A stretch of 20,090 bases of DNA. Source: a virus. Below the pieces are notes generated by a model, which worked only from the letters and a program-made list of their open reading frames with translations, made no database searches and was not told where the DNA came from. Positions 1-7,438 of this stretch are shown here, piece after piece. Every line of letters starts with the position of its first letter. The first letter of the stretch is position 1. The stretch lies in IMG/VR virus record IMGVR_UViG_3300038309_000298, positions 1 to 20,090 of that record. One strand, written 5' to 3'. Position numbers and translations under genes: made by a program.

Positions 1-1239
1 CTATCTGTTTTTTAAATTTTTACTTTGAGTATCATTTTCCTTTTTGGGTATATTTTGTATACTCAAAACCGGTATTCCGGCGATGGTTTTCCGCCTCATT
101 TCGTTCGATACATGCTGGTAATGATCCATTAAAGTCTTCGGGCTGGATCCGACAATTTCTGCCAGGGTTTTGATGTCATCGCCTCTCTCCAGTGCGTCTG
201 TTACGAATTTGTGCCGCATGTCATATGGCCGGATCCGCCTGGTGATGCCGGCTCGATCCAGGGCGCCCGCCCAGGACTTCTGAATCTTCTTTATTCCCCG
301 GCCGTGGTAATGAATGATTGGTTTGCTGGGATGACGGTTCAGTTCTTTCTTGATCAGCCTTTTTTCTTCTTTGCTGAGTTCACCCGTATCGATGTTTTCG
401 CAAAAGATCCAGGCTTCTTCTCTTTTGGCGTTCTCAGGGAGCCCCAGGCGCTTCAGGAGGTCCTTCAGTTCTTTTCCCATTGGTTCTGTATGCGTGTCAT
501 CCTGGTACCAGGTCCAGAGAATATCAATGAAGTCCGGATGCAAAGGAACCTGGCGCTGTCTGACGCCGCCCTTTTCAGCCGATCGGATTAAAATGGTCTC
601 AGATTCCCAATGCACATCTGGCCAGGATAACCTTAACAACTCGACCGCCCCTGGCCGTAACCCTGTATAATACGATAGCATGAGTGCTCGTTTTAAATGC
701 GGTGAGGCGTGCTGCAAAATTGCGGACGTTTCTTCCTGGGACGGTGGAATAATAATCTCGTCATCTGTTTGAGGCTTAACGTAGTCTCGGATCGGGTTGT
801 AAGGGATCATGGTCGGACGTCTCTTGGCGGCGAAATTAAGGATAGCCTTGATGTCGGTCAGTTCTCTCCGGATCGTGCTGTCCTTGACGCCATCACGGCG
901 TCTCTGGGCGACGTAATGGTCCAGGTCCTGGTCAGTGATTCGGAATGCTTTTATGTGCCCGAGGATCGGCAGAATGTTTGCGTGAAGGCGAATTTTAACG
1001 TGCTTGCGAGAATTGTCATTAAAATTCTTCGATTCAATATATACGTCGGCACAATCAGAAAAATCCGGCCCACTGTGCTGCCTGTTTGGCGGCCGGCGCT
1101 TACGGAGGCCCAGTTCTTTATCCCGAGCCCGGGCGTTCGCCTCCGCCGCCGGTCCGCGCCCGAAGTACTCACGTTTTATTTTTTCGTCGCGGCGGTAATA
1201 AACTTGCCAGCGTCCGTCTGGGAGTTGTTGGATTGCCAT
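1..1239 (-). CDS. int: Phage-type tyrosine recombinase (integrase), 412 aa
   Basis: Site-specific recombinase expected to integrate and excise the prophage. Residues 1-50 form a short basic arm-type N-terminus, about 58-150 the SAM-like core-binding domain, and about 165-385 the catalytic domain. Visible catalytic residues are R195 in TGLRPGA, K223 in the beta-hairpin, R342 and H343 in YDMRHKF, and the nucleophile Y374 in DHYQHVS. Two usual histidines are replaced: position 339 is Y instead of H in HxxR, and the GHSS-like motif reads GSS. Such variants are known in active family members. The length and N-terminal arm fit a phage integrase, not an integron IntI. The ATG at 1237-1239 has no clear Shine-Dalgarno upstream, and the region before it is very A+T-rich, so translation may be weak or the mRNA leader short. 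The stop codon is the first three bases of the window, so attP should lie just outside. Confidence 0.95.
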   Translation of the reverse strand: MAIQQLPDGRWQVYYRRDEKIKREYFGRGPAAEANARARDKELGLRKRRPPNRQHSGPDFSDCADVYIESKNFNDNSRKHVKIRLHANILPILGHIKAFRITDQDLDHYVAQRRRDGVKDSTIRRELTDIKAILNFAAKRRPTMIPYNPIRDYVKPQTDDEIIIPPSQEETSAILQHASPHLKRALMLSYYTGLRPGAVELLRLSWPDVHWESETILIRSAEKGGVRQRQVPLHPDFIDILWTWYQDDTHTEPMGKELKDLLKRLGLPENAKREEAWIFCENIDTGELSKEEKRLIKKELNRHPSKPIIHYHGRGIKKIQKSWAGALDRAGITRRIRPYDMRHKFVTDALERGDDIKTLAEIVGSSPKTLMDHYQHVSNEMRRKTIAGIPVLSIQNIPKKENDTQSKNLKNR

Positions 1240-1295: not shown

Positions 1296-2246
1296 TCAAA
1301 ATGGTCCTAAAAACTCAGAGTTAGGAGTTTCTGGCAAGGTTCGATACCATTCTTGCTCAAGTTTATCTGATAATTCAAGACGGGGACAAAGGTTATTAGG
1401 ATCCCTTCCCCTGAGTATGTTCTTTAAATGACGTATCGTTTTGAAGAAATAGTACAATTGATCAGATATTTCCTTTTTACACTGAGCATTATTACAAGAA
1501 TCAATTTGAGTCATTATAGTCTTTGTTAACTTAGCATAAGTAAAACCAATGCTCTCAATCGTATTAATAAGATCAGGGGGAAGATTAGATGGGTGAAAAC
1601 CTGCACTCAAAACTTTTGATAAATATTCAGCCGGAAGTATTTCAGATGGGTTTCTCAATAATTTCTGATTAAGTCTTGTGAGCTCGAGTATTTCTTCTAA
1701 AATCTTTTCAGATCGAGAGTCTGGAACCGATAATTTCGCACCTTGCTGCCGCCCCTGATCTTGAAGCTCATCTCCTAAAGAATCTAATCCCTCTTCTAAT
1801 ATGGGCCACCAAACATCAAAGGATTTGTCTAGACGGGAGTCATCGATGCTCTCATCAACACATGCTGTATTCATCGTTTTAATTAGCTTAAATACGTCTT
1901 CTTTTTCATATATTGTCGATTGAAATTGGAGTATTGGGCCTTCTACTTCCGATCTTTTGATATTAAACAAAAAGGGGCACACATTGCTCTTATTAATGCT
2001 TTTACTCAAAGCTCCAGCCTCAAAATTTACCCAAGGAGCGCTAAGATTATCTTTTGTAACACAAATAATCCCAAACGAGGATTCATCAAGTTCGCCAGCA
2101 ATATCAGTCGACCACCTGGCTCCTTTATCAATGTCTTCGGAAGATACATATGGAACAATACTTTGAATGACAGATGGTAACCAATCTCTGAAAACCTTGG
2201 CTACTTTATGACTTGTTTCACCAGACCAGCTAATAAAAACTTTCAT
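1296..2246 (-). CDS. TIR-domain protein, probable NAD-targeting defence effector, 316 aa
   Basis: The N-terminal ~130 residues are a bacterial TIR domain: the first strand MKVFISWSGE, then SSEDIDKGARW at about 35-45, and PWVNFEAGAL at 71-80. E76 is placed where TIR NADases keep their catalytic glutamate. Residues 130-316 have no family I recognise. They are largely helical and may sense the trigger or mediate assembly. TIR proteins of this sort cleave NAD+ or make nucleotide signals during phage infection; activity here is inferred. The start at 2246 is chosen because MKVFISW is the usual TIR beginning and a TTAGGA ribosome site lies 8-10 bases upstream; an 18-residue extension to 2300 is open but lacks support. 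No partner such as ThsA is adjacent. The gene is clearly A+T-richer than the phage replication genes. It sits alone between a candidate attC site and int. Confidence 0.85.
   Translation of the reverse strand: MKVFISWSGETSHKVAKVFRDWLPSVIQSIVPYVSSEDIDKGARWSTDIAGELDESSFGIICVTKDNLSAPWVNFEAGALSKSINKSNVCPFLFNIKRSEVEGPILQFQSTIYEKEDVFKLIKTMNTACVDESIDDSRLDKSFDVWWPILEEGLDSLGDELQDQGRQQGAKLSVPDSRSEKILEEILELTRLNQKLLRNPSEILPAEYLSKVLSAGFHPSNLPPDLINTIESIGFTYAKLTKTIMTQIDSCNNAQCKKEISDQLYYFFKTIRHLKNILRGRDPNNLCPRLELSDKLEQEWYRTLPETPNSEFLGPF
1320..1326 (-). other. Possible closing R'' box of the TIR cassette (TCCTAAC)
   Basis: On the minus strand the heptamer TCCTAAC lies inside the last codons of the TIR gene, 22 bases before its stop. 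It is the exact complement of GTTAGGA (2256-2262), the box just upstream of the TIR start. In an integron cassette the opening TTRRRY and the closing RYYYAAC are complementary, so this may mark the cassette end. No matching R' box or hairpin partner is visible further left, where int begins, so the rest of the site is either lost or this is chance. Confidence 0.3.
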
Positions 2247-2255
2247 GATATATAA

Positions 2256-2349
2256 TCCTAACAAATTAAAAGTTATGCGCCCTTTTGTCCTCGTTGGCAT
2301 ATGCCAGAAATAATCCCAATATATTTTACCGTCGATGGCTTTGTTGGGT
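2256..2349 (-). other. attC-like recombination site C (between hamB and the TIR gene)
   Basis: Minus-strand reading: ACCCAAC (2349-2343) 60 bases after the hamB stop, and GTTAGGA (2262-2256) 9 bases before the TIR ATG; total 94 bp. The outer boxes extend to AACAAA/TTTGTT. A 12-bp perfect palindrome (TGGCATATGCCA, 2295-2306) lies in the middle. ACCCAAC matches 6 of 7 bases of the complement of GTTGGGC, the box that opens the hamAB cassette at site B. The inner stem is poor compared with site B, so this is the weakest of the three. Confidence 0.4.
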
Positions 2350-2409
2350 TAGTTTCTTCCTGAGTAGGCGCCCTCGACGTCCTCATCACAAGAGACCATT
2401 CGGTGTTAG

Positions 2410-4698
2410 TTAATCGGGTAGGTACCACTCAACGAGTTCTTTCATGTGATCGGGAGCAGAACCAATGGAATCTCGGAAAACAATATTTTTTTCACTGACC
2501 GATTCAACATACTCGCTGACTTCTTGTACGCACTCCGATGGAAACCCGTATCGCATGAGTAGAATGTGCCGGGGGTTGTTCGTTCCATATCGAAGCAGTT
2601 CGATCATTCTGTTCGCACGCTCATCATCAGTCTGCTCGCCATATATCTTAAAAGCTGCGACAAAGACATCTGAGAGGCAGAAAGAGATAACCTGATCAAG
2701 ATAGTCATATGTATCAAACATCACTGCATCGTAACTGACTTCCTGAGCAAGAGTTCCGGTGGTGAACAGGGGAAATACCTTTACCATCGTCTTGTTTGGC
2801 AGTTTGCTGGCCGCCTGCGTAAACTGAGCTTTTCCCTGTCTTTCAGAATCTCTTTTCGATACGTAGCTATACCTGATTCCAACGATTTCTTTAAACGACC
2901 GGCCTTGGATCGCATGAAGAAAGATCTGAATAGCTTGACTGAATACGGCAGATTCACCTTCAACAAGTTTACGCCCCAGGGATGCCTCGTAGATTGTCTG
3001 GAATTTGTCGAGCACGCTCTTTCTCACGTGTTGTTTGTTTTGCCCTCCTATGCTTGCCCTGATGTCAACCGGGTCAAAAAAAATACTGTCTAACAGTTGT
3101 TGTGCACTCTGGAGAACACTTGCGGTCGATAGACGCTCAACCTTCGAGAGGGGCAAATTCTTGTCCTCGTCAAACGTGTTATCACGGAGAGATTGCAGAA
3201 ACTCATCAGTATCACTTTCATTTGTATAATCGCCACTCTCAATTGTGGATTCTTCATTGAGCTCGAACGACTCATTCATTCGGTTGATGAAGAGCTTAGG
3301 GCTTGTGGTATATACATACCCAAAGTCAAAACGGGTCTCGCTCGTAAGTCTACCGGCACGACCAATCAAGTTTTTGAATGCCAAGGCTCGCTCCTTCTCA
3401 CTGCCCGGTAATCGGGAACTCTTGAGCCATACCACGTCAAAAGGCATATTCACCCCTTGAGCTAAAGTGCTTGTAGCAAAGCAAAGAACGGCATTTCCTC
3501 CGCGAATGAAGGCCTCAACAAGAAAGCGAACTTCAAGAGGAACAGATCCATGGTGGATGACGACGCCTTTCCGTAGAAGGGCTATCATGTCGGATCGGTG
3601 TTCGTTTTCATTTGCTCCGATAATGTCAATGATTCTGTCGATGATCTGGAGAGCCTCTTGGTTCTTAATCGAACGCAACTTTTTAATGTAGTCGGCGAAG
3701 TCATCAAGATATGATCCGTTATAGATGGAAGTTTTAGATACGTAGACCAAGGTTGAGTGCTTAGGGGTAAGGCAAAAGGTCGGAAAATCATGCTCAAATG
3801 GTATACAGTGTCTAAGGAGGTGTCCATCGGCCAAATGCGGTGAGAAGCAGTAATCTCGCCCGTTAGTGTGTCTGAAGATACAAATTCTACCGACAGCTCC
3901 GTGGCTATATGAATGTGCGTATCCATGAGTACTGTTAATTTTATGTTTATTGAATTGAGCCTCGGGATTACTAACAAAGGGGTGAGCAAAGATTAACTTG
4001 GCCTTAGGGAAGTGCCTTATGATCCGTCGCACTGCGACATCAAAGATTAGCCCCCGATCATTGTCTTCCGCTATCTGTGCTTCGTCCAGGAAGAAAGTAC
4101 CTAAAGAGAGCAACTCATGGGATAGTCTAAATAGATCTTTGGTTCTTTCGGGGGTAAGGACAAAAATCCGACGAGGTGATCGAGCAGTGAAAACCCGGTC
4201 GACGAATGAACATATCATGACTTTTTTGTCTTCGCGGAAGCGCTCTTTGAAAATCCCCACATACTCCGCGATCAAAGCTCGCGACGGCACAATAACGACG
4301 GCATCGCGATGGTCTTGTGCTATGAATTCACGAACTGAATAGGATTTCCCAGAACTGGTTGGAGCAGAAATCGACACGTACTGAAGACTGTCAATAGACC
4401 GCCAGATGCTTGCCTGTACCGGCGTCAGACATGCCCCGAAGTCTCTCTCATGGGTTCGTCTAAAACCAGACATCAGGAAGGAATAGAGACTGGCGTCTTC
4501 TTGCACTTTGTGAAACAGTCCCAGCGCTGTTAAAACTTGCCTCTCAACTCTCTCGAATTCGTCGCTGTGGTGCAATTTGTAATAGGTGAGCGATTCAAGG
4601 ACGGTCGGTGAGACTGGACCCTCCCGATGTAATCGCCCCATAAGGTCTGCCAATTCCTCTTGGACGGTGTCACTGTTGAATATTTCCCTAATTGTCAT
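2410..4698 (-). CDS. hamB: Hachiman HamB, superfamily 2 helicase, 762 aa
   Basis: This is the ATPase/helicase half of the Hachiman anti-phage system, thought to survey DNA and release the HamA nuclease on damaged or phage DNA. Residues 108-118 carry Walker A (SAPTSSGKS, K118), 204-208 the DEAQ box (FLDEAQ), and about 395-470 the second RecA domain with HHGSVP, TSTLAQGVNMP (motif V) and NLIGRAGRLT (motif VI). The layout is Ski2-like. The remaining ~280 C-terminal residues have no motif I can name. The start is set at 4698 because GTGGGAG lies 7-8 bases upstream and it gives an 11-base overlap with the hamA end, typical of translational coupling; an open extension to 4770 would lie inside hamA. 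Length and partner fit HamB. A generic helicase of another two-gene system is the alternative. Confidence 0.85.
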   Translation of the reverse strand: MTIREIFNSDTVQEELADLMGRLHREGPVSPTVLESLTYYKLHHSDEFERVERQVLTALGLFHKVQEDASLYSFLMSGFRRTHERDFGACLTPVQASIWRSIDSLQYVSISAPTSSGKSYSVREFIAQDHRDAVVIVPSRALIAEYVGIFKERFREDKKVMICSFVDRVFTARSPRRIFVLTPERTKDLFRLSHELLSLGTFFLDEAQIAEDNDRGLIFDVAVRRIIRHFPKAKLIFAHPFVSNPEAQFNKHKINSTHGYAHSYSHGAVGRICIFRHTNGRDYCFSPHLADGHLLRHCIPFEHDFPTFCLTPKHSTLVYVSKTSIYNGSYLDDFADYIKKLRSIKNQEALQIIDRIIDIIGANENEHRSDMIALLRKGVVIHHGSVPLEVRFLVEAFIRGGNAVLCFATSTLAQGVNMPFDVVWLKSSRLPGSEKERALAFKNLIGRAGRLTSETRFDFGYVYTTSPKLFINRMNESFELNEESTIESGDYTNESDTDEFLQSLRDNTFDEDKNLPLSKVERLSTASVLQSAQQLLDSIFFDPVDIRASIGGQNKQHVRKSVLDKFQTIYEASLGRKLVEGESAVFSQAIQIFLHAIQGRSFKEIVGIRYSYVSKRDSERQGKAQFTQAASKLPNKTMVKVFPLFTTGTLAQEVSYDAVMFDTYDYLDQVISFCLSDVFVAAFKIYGEQTDDERANRMIELLRYGTNNPRHILLMRYGFPSECVQEVSEYVESVSEKNIVFRDSIGSAPDHMKELVEWYLPD

Positions 4699-5425
4699 GG
4701 CTGACTCCCACAACGATAACTGCATGAGAGTTATTGATTCGCTCATACTCTTGAGCTCGTTTAACTGCATTGCGGAAAACGTAGAGAGGCCGTTGTGCCT
4801 CTAGTGAAAACGCTATGACGACCCCCCAAATATCATTGTCAAGATCAGCCATACCTTCAGAGGCAAGGAGATTGAGGTGAGGGGTGTCCCGAAGATGCTT
4901 CTCTTCTTGAAAAAATTGGTCTGCCTGCTCTGCAGCCTTTCTGTAAGGGTTGAAGTTTGAAGAGTACTTCGCTTCCCCGAAGTGGATGACGTTAGCGGAG
5001 CATATGGTGTGAAAATCGAAACCCTCGTTTCCGCTGACCTGTGCCTTCCAAAGTTCTGATATCGGAAGCGCTGTGTGTGAAAAAACGACTTCCAGGGCCT
5101 TCGACGCTCCCATAGAAACCATCAACTCTCCGAACTCGCATCCCACGTTGTCCTTGGACGCTGCATTCCGAAATAGAGATGAGAGACGAATTGCGGTTTC
5201 TGTTACAGTTTGTCGGTATGCACGTTGCGATCTTGGGTCCAAGTCCATAATCCAAGATGTGTCCAGCACATCGGCTGCTAAGTGCTTCGCCATCTGTTCG
5301 ACGTCTGATACATTAACGTGGCAAATAAGGATGTGCGATTGCCCATGGTCTCCCTCGACCTCGGACATTTCACACCCCAGCTCTGCTACTGACTGGATTG
5401 CCAAAAATTTGTATCCGTTACACAT
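4688..5425 (-). CDS. hamA: Hachiman HamA, DUF1837-type nuclease, 245 aa
   Basis: This is the nuclease half of Hachiman. The conserved DUF1837 pattern is visible: FGELM at 98-102, K127, GFD at 135-137, and HFGEAKYS at 148-155. D137, E151 and K153 form a PD-(D/E)xK-like catalytic set. Known HamA proteins cut or nick DNA when HamB is triggered, causing nucleoid loss and aborted infection. The gene overlaps hamB by 11 bases with hamA first, the usual Hachiman order. The ATG at 5425 has only a weak GAAAG ribosome site, and a 35-codon ORF ends across it (ATGTGTAA), so coupling to a leader peptide is possible. The family assignment rests on motif plus the adjacent large helicase; I could not run a profile search. 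Confidence 0.83.
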   Translation of the reverse strand: MCNGYKFLAIQSVAELGCEMSEVEGDHGQSHILICHVNVSDVEQMAKHLAADVLDTSWIMDLDPRSQRAYRQTVTETAIRLSSLFRNAASKDNVGCEFGELMVSMGASKALEVVFSHTALPISELWKAQVSGNEGFDFHTICSANVIHFGEAKYSSNFNPYRKAAEQADQFFQEEKHLRDTPHLNLLASEGMADLDNDIWGVVIAFSLEAQRPLYVFRNAVKRAQEYERINNSHAVIVVGVSHDN

Positions 5426-5536: not shown

Positions 5537-5627
5537 GCCCAACGGCCTACATCACCAGCGGCCCACCCAAGCTTGCCGCGCCAGCGCCACTGTGCTTCTC
5601 GCCGTCTTGTGAATGCGATGGTTATGT
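5537..5627 (-). other. attC-like recombination site B (between the Mrr gene and hamA)
   Basis: Minus-strand reading: ACATAAC (5627-5621), 31 bases after the Mrr stop, and GTTGGGC (5543-5537), a perfect GTTRRRY. Inside the AAC/GTT pair are unpaired spacers of 6 and 5 nt (5544-5549, 5616-5620). Then 5550-5562 pairs with 5601-5615 as 3+3+2+4 bp, with one mismatch and two single bulged bases (5605, 5612). Both bulges are on the arm that would be L''. That is the attC plan: R box, unpaired central spacer, L box, extrahelical bases, variable loop. The orientation is the one expected for a leftward cassette gene. Confidence 0.62.
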
Positions 5628-5658
5628 GATTTTCTTGTTTTCATTGTGGTTTATCCCA

Positions 5659-6429
5659 TCAGTATTTTCTAAGCCAAGACTTGATAGCTTCATAGTCCTT
5701 CAAATCAAGTTGGTTCTCAAAAGCCTTCGCCTCCTTAATTGCATCTGGAGAGAAAAAGCTGGTTGTAACAATAAGACTTTTTGTCGCATGTTTGATGTGA
5801 TGAACACCGGTGACTTCACGAATAATGCCCACCCCAACTTTATTTTCTGGGGAATATTTCTTACACTCAACCAATGTGAGGTATTCACAGACAGCATTGC
5901 GAATATATGCAATAATATCTGAACCTCCGTCGCGGGTTGCTTGAGTTAGTTCAACTTCGAAACCAATGTCCTCTAAAATACTTGCGATAAGCTCTTCGAA
6001 TTTGCGAGGTATGAGATCATACAGGACCTCTGGATGTTTCTTCAGGTATCGCTTTAGTTCAGTATTTATATCCGTAACTAGTATCGAGCCGTTGGATTCG
6101 CTCTCAGTTGGTTCCGCTGCTGTAAAAAGTGGCTCTTCTGCTTGGTCAGTTTGCTCCATGCGCTCCATCGTAGAAACGAGTTCAGCTTCCGCATCATCGC
6201 GAGCCTCAATAGAGACCTCACCTTCAATCCAGCGGTACCGACCATCTTCGTGTCGAGCCAGAATGGCATAACCCCAGTCTTTATCGGTTTTATCAAAAGA
6301 GAGAGTCCCGATGATATTTCGATTAGAATCTGCATACCATCCGTTCTCTTGTATGAAAATATTGATCATCGGACCCCTTGCAGGATCAAATGAATCAAAT
6401 TCTTTAAGACTAATTGAGTCGATTGCCAT
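5659..6429 (-). CDS. Mrr-type restriction endonuclease, 256 aa
   Basis: The C-terminal half (about 140-235) is an Mrr_cat domain of the PD-(D/E)xK fold: FEELIAS with E145/E146, RDGGSD with D171, and LVECKKY with E188 and K190. The characteristic downstream part (VGVGIIREVTGVHH and LIVTTSFFSPDA) follows. Such enzymes cut modified or foreign DNA; the target here is unknown. Residues 1-100 form a separate region rich in aromatic and acidic residues with no family I recognise, possibly a reader domain. It stands alone, with no methyltransferase nearby, which suits a modification-dependent or stress-activated nuclease. It is flanked by the complementary boxes GTTATGTG (upstream) and CACATAAC (downstream), as an integron cassette would be. 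There is no strong Shine-Dalgarno before the ATG at 6429. Confidence 0.85.
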   Translation of the reverse strand: MAIDSISLKEFDSFDPARGPMINIFIQENGWYADSNRNIIGTLSFDKTDKDWGYAILARHEDGRYRWIEGEVSIEARDDAEAELVSTMERMEQTDQAEEPLFTAAEPTESESNGSILVTDINTELKRYLKKHPEVLYDLIPRKFEELIASILEDIGFEVELTQATRDGGSDIIAYIRNAVCEYLTLVECKKYSPENKVGVGIIREVTGVHHIKHATKSLIVTTSFFSPDAIKEAKAFENQLDLKDYEAIKSWLRKY

Positions 6430-6449
6430 TTAAGGTCTCTATACCCGAC

Positions 6450-6571
6450 ACATAACGTTTCAAGCCAATAGCAGCCAGGGGTACCATTGACTTGGTTAAT
6501 GCTCTTGGATGTTCGATCCCCCCAATTTTGGAAAACCAAGTGCCCTGACTGTCCTTTGAGCTTCGTTAACC
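6450..6571 (-). other. attC-like recombination site A (between the zinc-motif gene and the Mrr gene)
   Basis: Minus-strand reading: GGTTAAC (6571-6565), which includes the TAA stop of the upstream gene, and GTTATGT (6456-6450), 20 bases before the Mrr ATG. Between them are paired blocks: TCAA/TTGA with one bulged T (6555) on the L'' arm; CAG and CAGGG (6472-6480) with CCCTG and CTG (6543-6551); and ACTTGG (6490-6495) with CCAAGT (6536-6541). The arms are unequal in length, so the fold is looser than site B. A stop codon inside R'' is common in integron cassettes. Confidence 0.5.
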
Positions 6572-7438
6572 TTTTTTTTGATTCATCAACGTAGATAATG
6601 CTTTAGAAAGCTCGGCTTCATCTTTTAGCGCTTGAGATAACCGCTCAGACAACTCTCCAAGAACAATTCGTACGCTGCTTGCCAACTCGAGACAATCTTC
6701 ATCGGAAAGAGCATGTACTCCCTCACTAAGCGCTCTGTGTAAAAGTAAAATCGGACTGTGCCCGTTAATTAGTAAGCTCTCAGGAATTACATCTTTAGCC
6801 ATATCCAAGGCTTTGCTAAATTGCGTCTCTGAAACCGCTGCCTTTAGCGTTTCAATTTTTTCTTGTGAAGCACCAATTTTTTCAGAAACTTTGATAATTT
6901 CTTCTAATATTCTGTTTTTTTGATTTTCTACTACTCTACGATAGTAAACAAATGCACCAATCCCTAACCCTTGGTTTTCACATCTCCTTTCTTTTAAAAA
7001 CGAGTCTCGATCTGGGCCTATCAATTTGATTAACCTGGCAGGAGTCGGCGGCCCGAATGTTGGCCTTTCCCCAAATTTAAGAAGTACCCCAACAGGTTGT
7101 CCTTCTTTATATAAACGAGCAGCAAGAGCATATATCTTCTGATATTCCTGGCAGTTGGAGCATCTATACGTGACGTAAATATTACGATAGCTTGTAGAAA
7201 GCTGTACTTCCTTACTTGAAATACACCTAAAAAACCTAATCCCATTACACACGTCGCTTGGGCAATGCAGTTGAATATCCGGCGTATTCAATATGTCCTG
7301 CAAAGAGCCAGTTATTAATTTGTATTTAGAAAGATCAGAAATATAGGATAAACTATTTGGTGGAGTACTCTCAAGAAAGTCCGACAGAGTTTTAACTTCT
7401 AAATCTTCAGTTACATCTTGTCCATTTTCTTCTGACAT
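6566..7438 (-). CDS. Conserved-looking protein of unknown function with a zinc motif, 290 aa
   Basis: I cannot assign a function. Residues 58-64 (HCPSDVC) and the later CSNC pair form a likely zinc-binding ribbon with an aromatic strand between them. A well-ordered middle segment (about 125-170) has GPPTPARLIKLIGPDRD and RRCENQGLGIGAFVYYRRV, the kind of motif-rich block seen in real families. The C-terminal third (170-290) is helical with strong heptad character and probably coils. The ATG at 7438 follows GAGGAAGGGAG and comes only 14 bases after the BRCT gene stop, so both are likely on one transcript. Its stop codon lies inside attC-like site A. By position it may be another defence component, but that is guilt by association only. 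No signal peptide or membrane segment is visible. Confidence 0.75.
   Translation of the reverse strand: MSEENGQDVTEDLEVKTLSDFLESTPPNSLSYISDLSKYKLITGSLQDILNTPDIQLHCPSDVCNGIRFFRCISSKEVQLSTSYRNIYVTYRCSNCQEYQKIYALAARLYKEGQPVGVLLKFGERPTFGPPTPARLIKLIGPDRDSFLKERRCENQGLGIGAFVYYRRVVENQKNRILEEIIKVSEKIGASQEKIETLKAAVSETQFSKALDMAKDVIPESLLINGHSPILLLHRALSEGVHALSDEDCLELASSVRIVLGELSERLSQALKDEAELSKALSTLMNQKKG

Follow-up and report, generated by a model that had tools for sequence, protein, structure and literature searches.

A probable attC site at the 3′ end of a single-gene Mrr-type nuclease cassette in a temperate phage

Results

Genetic context of site B

The analysed window is the 20,090-bp IMG/VR virus record IMGVR_UViG_3300038309_000298 (positions 1–20,090), a metagenome-derived viral contig. 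The genes at its left end lie on the minus strand and encode a phage-type tyrosine integrase, a TIR protein, a HamB-like helicase and its partner, an Mrr-type nuclease, a further protein and a BRCT protein, while primases, a methyltransferase and the terminase large subunit are encoded on the plus strand in the right part. Integrase, repressor, primase and terminase genes are all in the window, which gives the attC-like element studied here, site B, a phage context. The site is placed in the gap between the stop of the nuclease gene (5659) and the start of the HamB partner gene (5425). The contig was seen once and comes from a metagenome, and it may possibly be chimeric. The features referred to below are as follows.

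1–1239, minus strand: phage-type tyrosine integrase (PHROG integrase, E 3e-49; TIGR02249, 58 bits against a cut-off of 265)
1296–5425, minus strand: defence-type cluster adjoining the cassette (TIR gene, HamB-like helicase, overlapping 245-aa gene)
5537–5627, minus strand: attC site B, complete R″-L″-loop-L′-R′ (36.7 bits with covariance model R1, 39.2 bits with R2, 0/600 shuffles)
5537–5543, minus strand: R′ box GTTGGGC, perfect GTTRRRY, predicted cut between G5543 and T5542
5544–5549, minus strand: spacer′ TAGGCC, 6 nt (covariance model alignment, shuffle geometry test)
5550–5562, minus strand: L′ arm GCCGCTGGTGATG (covariance model alignment, shuffle geometry test)
5563–5600, minus strand: variable terminal structure, a 38-nt loop containing competing hairpins (folding)
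5601–5615, minus strand: L″ arm CAT-T5612-CACAAG-A5605-CGGC, two extrahelical bases 6 bp apart
5616–5620, minus strand: 5-nt spacer″ CATCG, one half of the central spacer, which is unpaired (placed by the register of the 47 attCs used for training)
5621–5627, minus strand: R″ box ACATAAC, 6/7 to RYYYAAC (sequence and covariance model alignment)
5543–6455, minus strand: gene cassette of 913 bp, inferred to be complete (its start TTATGT is complementary to R″ ACATAAC, 7/7)
5659–6429, minus strand: Mrr_cat restriction-endonuclease-like gene, 256 aa (Pfam PF04471, E 3.7e-24)
6450–6456, minus strand: left cassette boundary G/TTATGT, 20 nt from the ATG at 6429 (the slash marks the cut)
6450–6571, minus strand: site C, an inverted repeat resembling an attC, located where the upstream boundary is predicted, possibly a diverged attC
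6566–7438, minus strand: gene upstream of the cassette, family of unknown function (three relatives of 56–60% identity on viral contigs, L105–L107)

In the defence-type cluster, the TIR gene matched PADLOC TIR-TM (E 8e-115) and the helicase gene the PADLOC HamB model (E 1e-56). The 245-aa gene that overlaps the latter stands in the HamA position, and it had no match in Pfam, PADLOC, NCBIfam, PDB or plasmids. The integrase, HamB and the nuclease of the window had no close relatives in IMG/VR. An Rfam search of the window gave no match, and no tRNA was found in it.

Site B has the layout of an attC

Read on the minus strand from 5627 to 5537, site B consists of ACATAAC-CATCG-CAT-T-CACAAG-A-CGGC, the 38-nt loop and GCCG-CTGGTG-ATG-TAGGCC-GTTGGGC. 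It thus carries the AAC…GTT core together with RYYYAAC and GTTRRRY boxes, and known arrays often have ACATAAC as their R″. The seven-base outer boxes, the unequal unpaired spacers of 6 and 5 nt, and the inner stem of 12 bp with one mismatch, all described in the first-pass annotation, were recovered; the stem spans 13 positions, of which 12 are Watson–Crick pairs and one is an A/G mismatch, and the spacer lengths are those of the trained alignment. The two single extrahelical bases that it had placed at 5605 and 5612 are likewise present, on the L″ arm only and 6 bp apart. The polarity of attC sites is defined by such bases on the L″ arm, 6–8 nt apart (PMC2727003). The first of them, counted on the bottom strand, is A5612 and not the conserved G, while the second is the usual T; this G is called “particularly conserved” but it is not obligatory (PMC2727003). 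The cut position of integron integrases, G/TTRRRY, is established (PMC9892861), and from the cut predicted at site B the TTGGGC of the R′ box belongs to the downstream flank, outside the cassette.

The layout was compared with covariance models trained on known sites. The training set for model R1 comprised 47 attCs from IntI-bearing IMG/VR contigs, from Vibrio, Shewanella and Tetrasphaera phages and from plasmids with class 1 integrons, with the window excluded. Their alignment follows a single register, in which R″ is succeeded by a 5-nt spacer, 3 bp, one extrahelical base, 6 bp, another extrahelical base and the remaining stem, and the loop by the returning stem arm, 5–6 nt and R′. Site B fits this register position by position, and the geometry of the outer pairs is present in at least 40 of the 47. 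Model R1 matched site B at full length with 36.7 bits (E 6.3e-7), while the next-best match within the window scored 12.3 bits and the maximum in 382 kb of integron-free control DNA was 13.8 bits. The rebuilt model R2 (150 attCs) gave 39.2 bits (E 5.7e-8) and had no match in 432 kb of control DNA at E values up to 5; the E-values for site B refer to the whole window. Such scores are typical of real attCs: the attCs accepted among 172 hits in integron loci range from 24 to 64 bits, and the sites of phage TJE1, which have been tested with IntI1 (PMC9892861), from 35.8 to 41.8 bits. As the match at 5537–5627 was obtained on the minus strand only, which is the gene strand, the agreement between the polarity of the site and the gene direction noted earlier was borne out. 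A shuffled-sequence control had been proposed as the refuting test, but none of 600 locally dinucleotide-shuffled windows reached at least 12/13 pairs with at least 6/8 in the boxes, and site B withstood it. Arm complementarity alone was rejected as an attC diagnostic, because the loosest arm score ranked several in-gene places higher.

Among wider searches, the L″ half of site B had no second exact copy in IMG/VR, a search of plasmids for similar attCs gave only chance-level matches, and the Vibrio cholerae repeat had no match in the phage collection. Dozens of IMG/VR “viral” contigs (L025–L087) carry integron integrase genes and attC arrays; in one of these IntI-bearing contigs (L064, 10001–13639) the array and intI share a strand and intI comes first, which is an inverted integron layout. 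Some of these IntI- or attC-bearing contigs are probably plasmid or chromosomal sequence.

The cassette start complements the R″ box of site B

In known arrays, 41 of 48 adjacent cassettes begin with a G/TTRRRY that is the 7/7 reverse complement of the R″ box. The R″ box of site B is ACATAAC, therefore the predicted cassette start is G/TTATGT. GTTATGT occurs twice on the minus strand of the 20-kb window, once at 6456–6450, just in front of the nuclease gene. An ORF (6429–5659) with an attC directly 3′ to it and the start TTATGT at 6455 was thus found, and the gene fills the cassette, with a 26-nt leader and the stop codon 31 nt before R″. A single gene followed by its attC is the standard arrangement of a cassette. 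The fold plays no part in this argument.

The N-terminal part of the Mrr-type nuclease (residues 4–98) resembles PD-T7-1 (PADLOC, E 1.2e-20), which together with the Mrr catalytic domain suggests, as far as homology can tell, a cassette of defence type. Close relatives of the gene were not detected in any integron. The two full-length relatives (48–49%) are located on a Flavobacterium MAG contig and on a plasmid of Acinetobacter, and in neither case was an adjoining attC detected. The cassette DNA itself had no match among plasmids and phages.

Site B is predicted to fold poorly as single-stranded DNA

The first-pass annotation had also proposed folding the bottom strand as ssDNA, and this check did not favour the site: the unconstrained minimum free energy (MFE) structure (−15.3 kcal/mol) is a different one from the attC hairpin, which reached −6.3 kcal/mol when the L stems and AAC/GTT were enforced. 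The MFE corresponds to a z of −1.1, and 34 of 200 shuffles folded at least as well; plain ssDNA folding was rejected as proof of an attC on account of this z value. The recombinogenic pfold of the bottom strand (2.4e-6) corresponds to the 7th percentile in a set of 150 known attCs, whereas that of the top strand is 1.3e-4, an advantage of about 50-fold. Of the known attCs, 79% favour the bottom strand and 21% the top strand, and 25% have a pfold below 1e-3. Ready folding of the bottom strand, a typical but not a defining attC trait, is therefore not seen at site B. The claim of a full attC folding plan stood as regards geometry and canonical register, but not as regards good folding, with a pfold among the lowest 7% and the top strand favoured. 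Because the unconstrained fold misses the hairpin, the evidence for site B lies in geometry and sequence, not in stability. Sites with a pfold near 1e-5 recombine poorly (PMC5371416), and low recombination activity is expected for site B from the folding model; such low activity would stabilize the cassette at its position.

The poor thermodynamic fold (z −1.1) and the occurrence of a single site would also fit an inverted repeat that arose by chance or has nothing to do with integrons, for instance a terminator or a regulatory hairpin. We consider this reading very unlikely in view of the strand-specific full-length match (E 6e-7 to 6e-8), the result of 0/600 with shuffles, the cassette start that follows the rule and the lack of a T run after the stem. 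Considering these results, we concluded that site B is very probably a real attC, the 3′ site of a complete single-gene Mrr nuclease cassette (5543–6455) in a temperate phage. The points against this conclusion are the MFE, the low pfold, the preference for the top strand, the non-G first extrahelical base, the single attC, the lack of a second exact L″ half in IMG/VR, the failure to find close integron relatives of the Mrr gene and the possibly chimeric contig.

Site C and other attC-like spots

Site B is the one significant attC of the window, while the usual threshold for a CALIN is two attC sites. The second could be site C, if a piece of an array had been taken up and site C were the diverged attC of an upstream cassette. 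The predicted cassette start coincides exactly with the R′ of site C, whose R″ shares bases with the stop codon of the upstream gene; its arm score was reached by 3 of 1,000 shuffles and 1.2% of real control positions, and the covariance model match is full-length and on the minus strand. However, this match amounts to 7.4 bits (E 3 for the window), site C misses the canonical register of extrahelical bases, and the complementary start GTTAACC expected for the upstream cassette is absent. The three viral-contig relatives of the upstream gene, moreover, have differing neighbourhoods and no attC adjoins any of them. Site C is thus weakly supported as an attC, and the two-site remnant array, a sub-case of the conclusion reached above, is a real possibility to which we would give somewhat less than an even chance.

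The other sub-case is that a single circular cassette was inserted by a host IntI at a secondary, non-attI (attG-like) site, with site C as mere flank. Such an event would be expected to leave exactly one cassette with exactly one strong attC as its 3′ end, and attG insertion is known from the literature (discussed in PMC12444791). No empty site was found for comparison, and the inverted-repeat structure of site C is above chance; this course of events appears to us conceivable, at slightly below even odds.

Further spots were inspected in the defence-type cluster. A third attC after HamB (2255–2412) was rejected, having no model match and an unremarkable fold, and the local covariance model matches at 2256–2278 and 3088–3105 are at chance level. 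The former (12.6 bits), just upstream of the TIR gene, reads TCCTAACAAAT..GTTATGC and resembles fused outer attC ends without arms. After the HamB stop, at 2338–2349 on the minus strand, ACCCAACAAAGC resembles an R″ box with its spacer and nearly complements the GTTGGGC of site B. No L′/R′ half follows it, and it is possibly a truncated attC or a chance occurrence.

The record does not encode an integron integrase

No IntI is encoded in the record, whose sole integrase is of the phage type, with a TIGR02249 score far below the cut-off, and the combination of an intI gene with an attI in cis, by which an integron is recognized, does not occur in the window. CTX phage uses a folded single-stranded attP with XerCD, and site B might by analogy be a folded attP, the substrate of the phage's own tyrosine integrase, as a tyrosine recombinase gene is present in the same element. 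The site is, however, 4.3 kb from this gene, lies precisely where the cassette ends and agrees closely with the known family of IntI substrates, which makes this reading highly improbable.

Discussion

On the attC reading of site B, the nuclease cassette is part of the cargo of a temperate phage, in the region flanked by the integrase on one side and by the repressor and replication genes on the other. As the record encodes no IntI, the phage is presumably unable to recombine site B by itself, and capture would have relied on an integron integrase from elsewhere. The circular cassette may have been inserted at G/TT by an enzyme supplied by the host or by an earlier carrier; alternatively, a short piece of a cassette array may have moved in bodily. 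The bottom strand of site B, which is the plus strand of the window, would be the IntI substrate when folded with its R and L stems, and the two extrahelical bases on the L″ arm would fix the orientation of the cassette to that of the gene. We infer that the cassette was mobile in the past and that some, probably low, recombination activity remains. It could further be imagined that temperate phages draw exchangeable superinfection-immunity genes from host integrons, capture by IntI in trans at a weakly folding attC being nearly irreversible, but at present we regard this as rather unlikely.

Site B joins two recent lines of research, one on integrons as reservoirs of anti-phage genes and the other on phage-borne attCs, by a concrete defence-type cassette with defined boundaries, which adjoins HamB-like helicase and TIR genes in a temperate phage. 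It is also a single phage-borne attC, below the two-site threshold, that could be verified by the complementary cassette start, and this rule would allow single-cassette insertions to be found on a large scale.

Site B resembles the attCs (59-base elements) of IntI-linked arrays in its R″ and R′ boxes, the 5- and 6-nt spacers, the pair of extrahelical bases on L″ with 6 bp between them, the L stem and loop, the position 3′ of a cassette gene, the polarity and the complementary cassette start. It differs from them in the bottom-strand first extrahelical base (A, not G), the low stem stability and the lack of an integrase in cis. AttC sites and CALINs have been described in phages, for example in Tetrasphaera phage TJE1 (Qi et al., 2023, PMC9892861), and five of six phage attCs tested recombined with IntI1 (PMC9892861). 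As in those phages, an attC-bounded cassette is found here in a phage genome without IntI, and the score is similar to those of the TJE1 sites (36.7 versus 35.8–41.8 bits). Here, however, there is one significant attC, the cassette carries a defence-type nuclease whereas methyltransferases were noted there (PMC9892861), the phage is temperate and further defence-type genes lie alongside. Anti-phage defence cassettes of integrons have been reported by Darracq (2025), Getz (2025) and Kieffer (2025), as cited in PMC12444791. The cassette described here is similar to these in being a single-gene, apparently defence-type cassette with an attC, but it lies in a phage, outside any integron, and its defence role is putative. 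Phage-borne attCs (2023) and defence cassettes of integrons (2025) were thus already known, and site B is a new, well-supported example.
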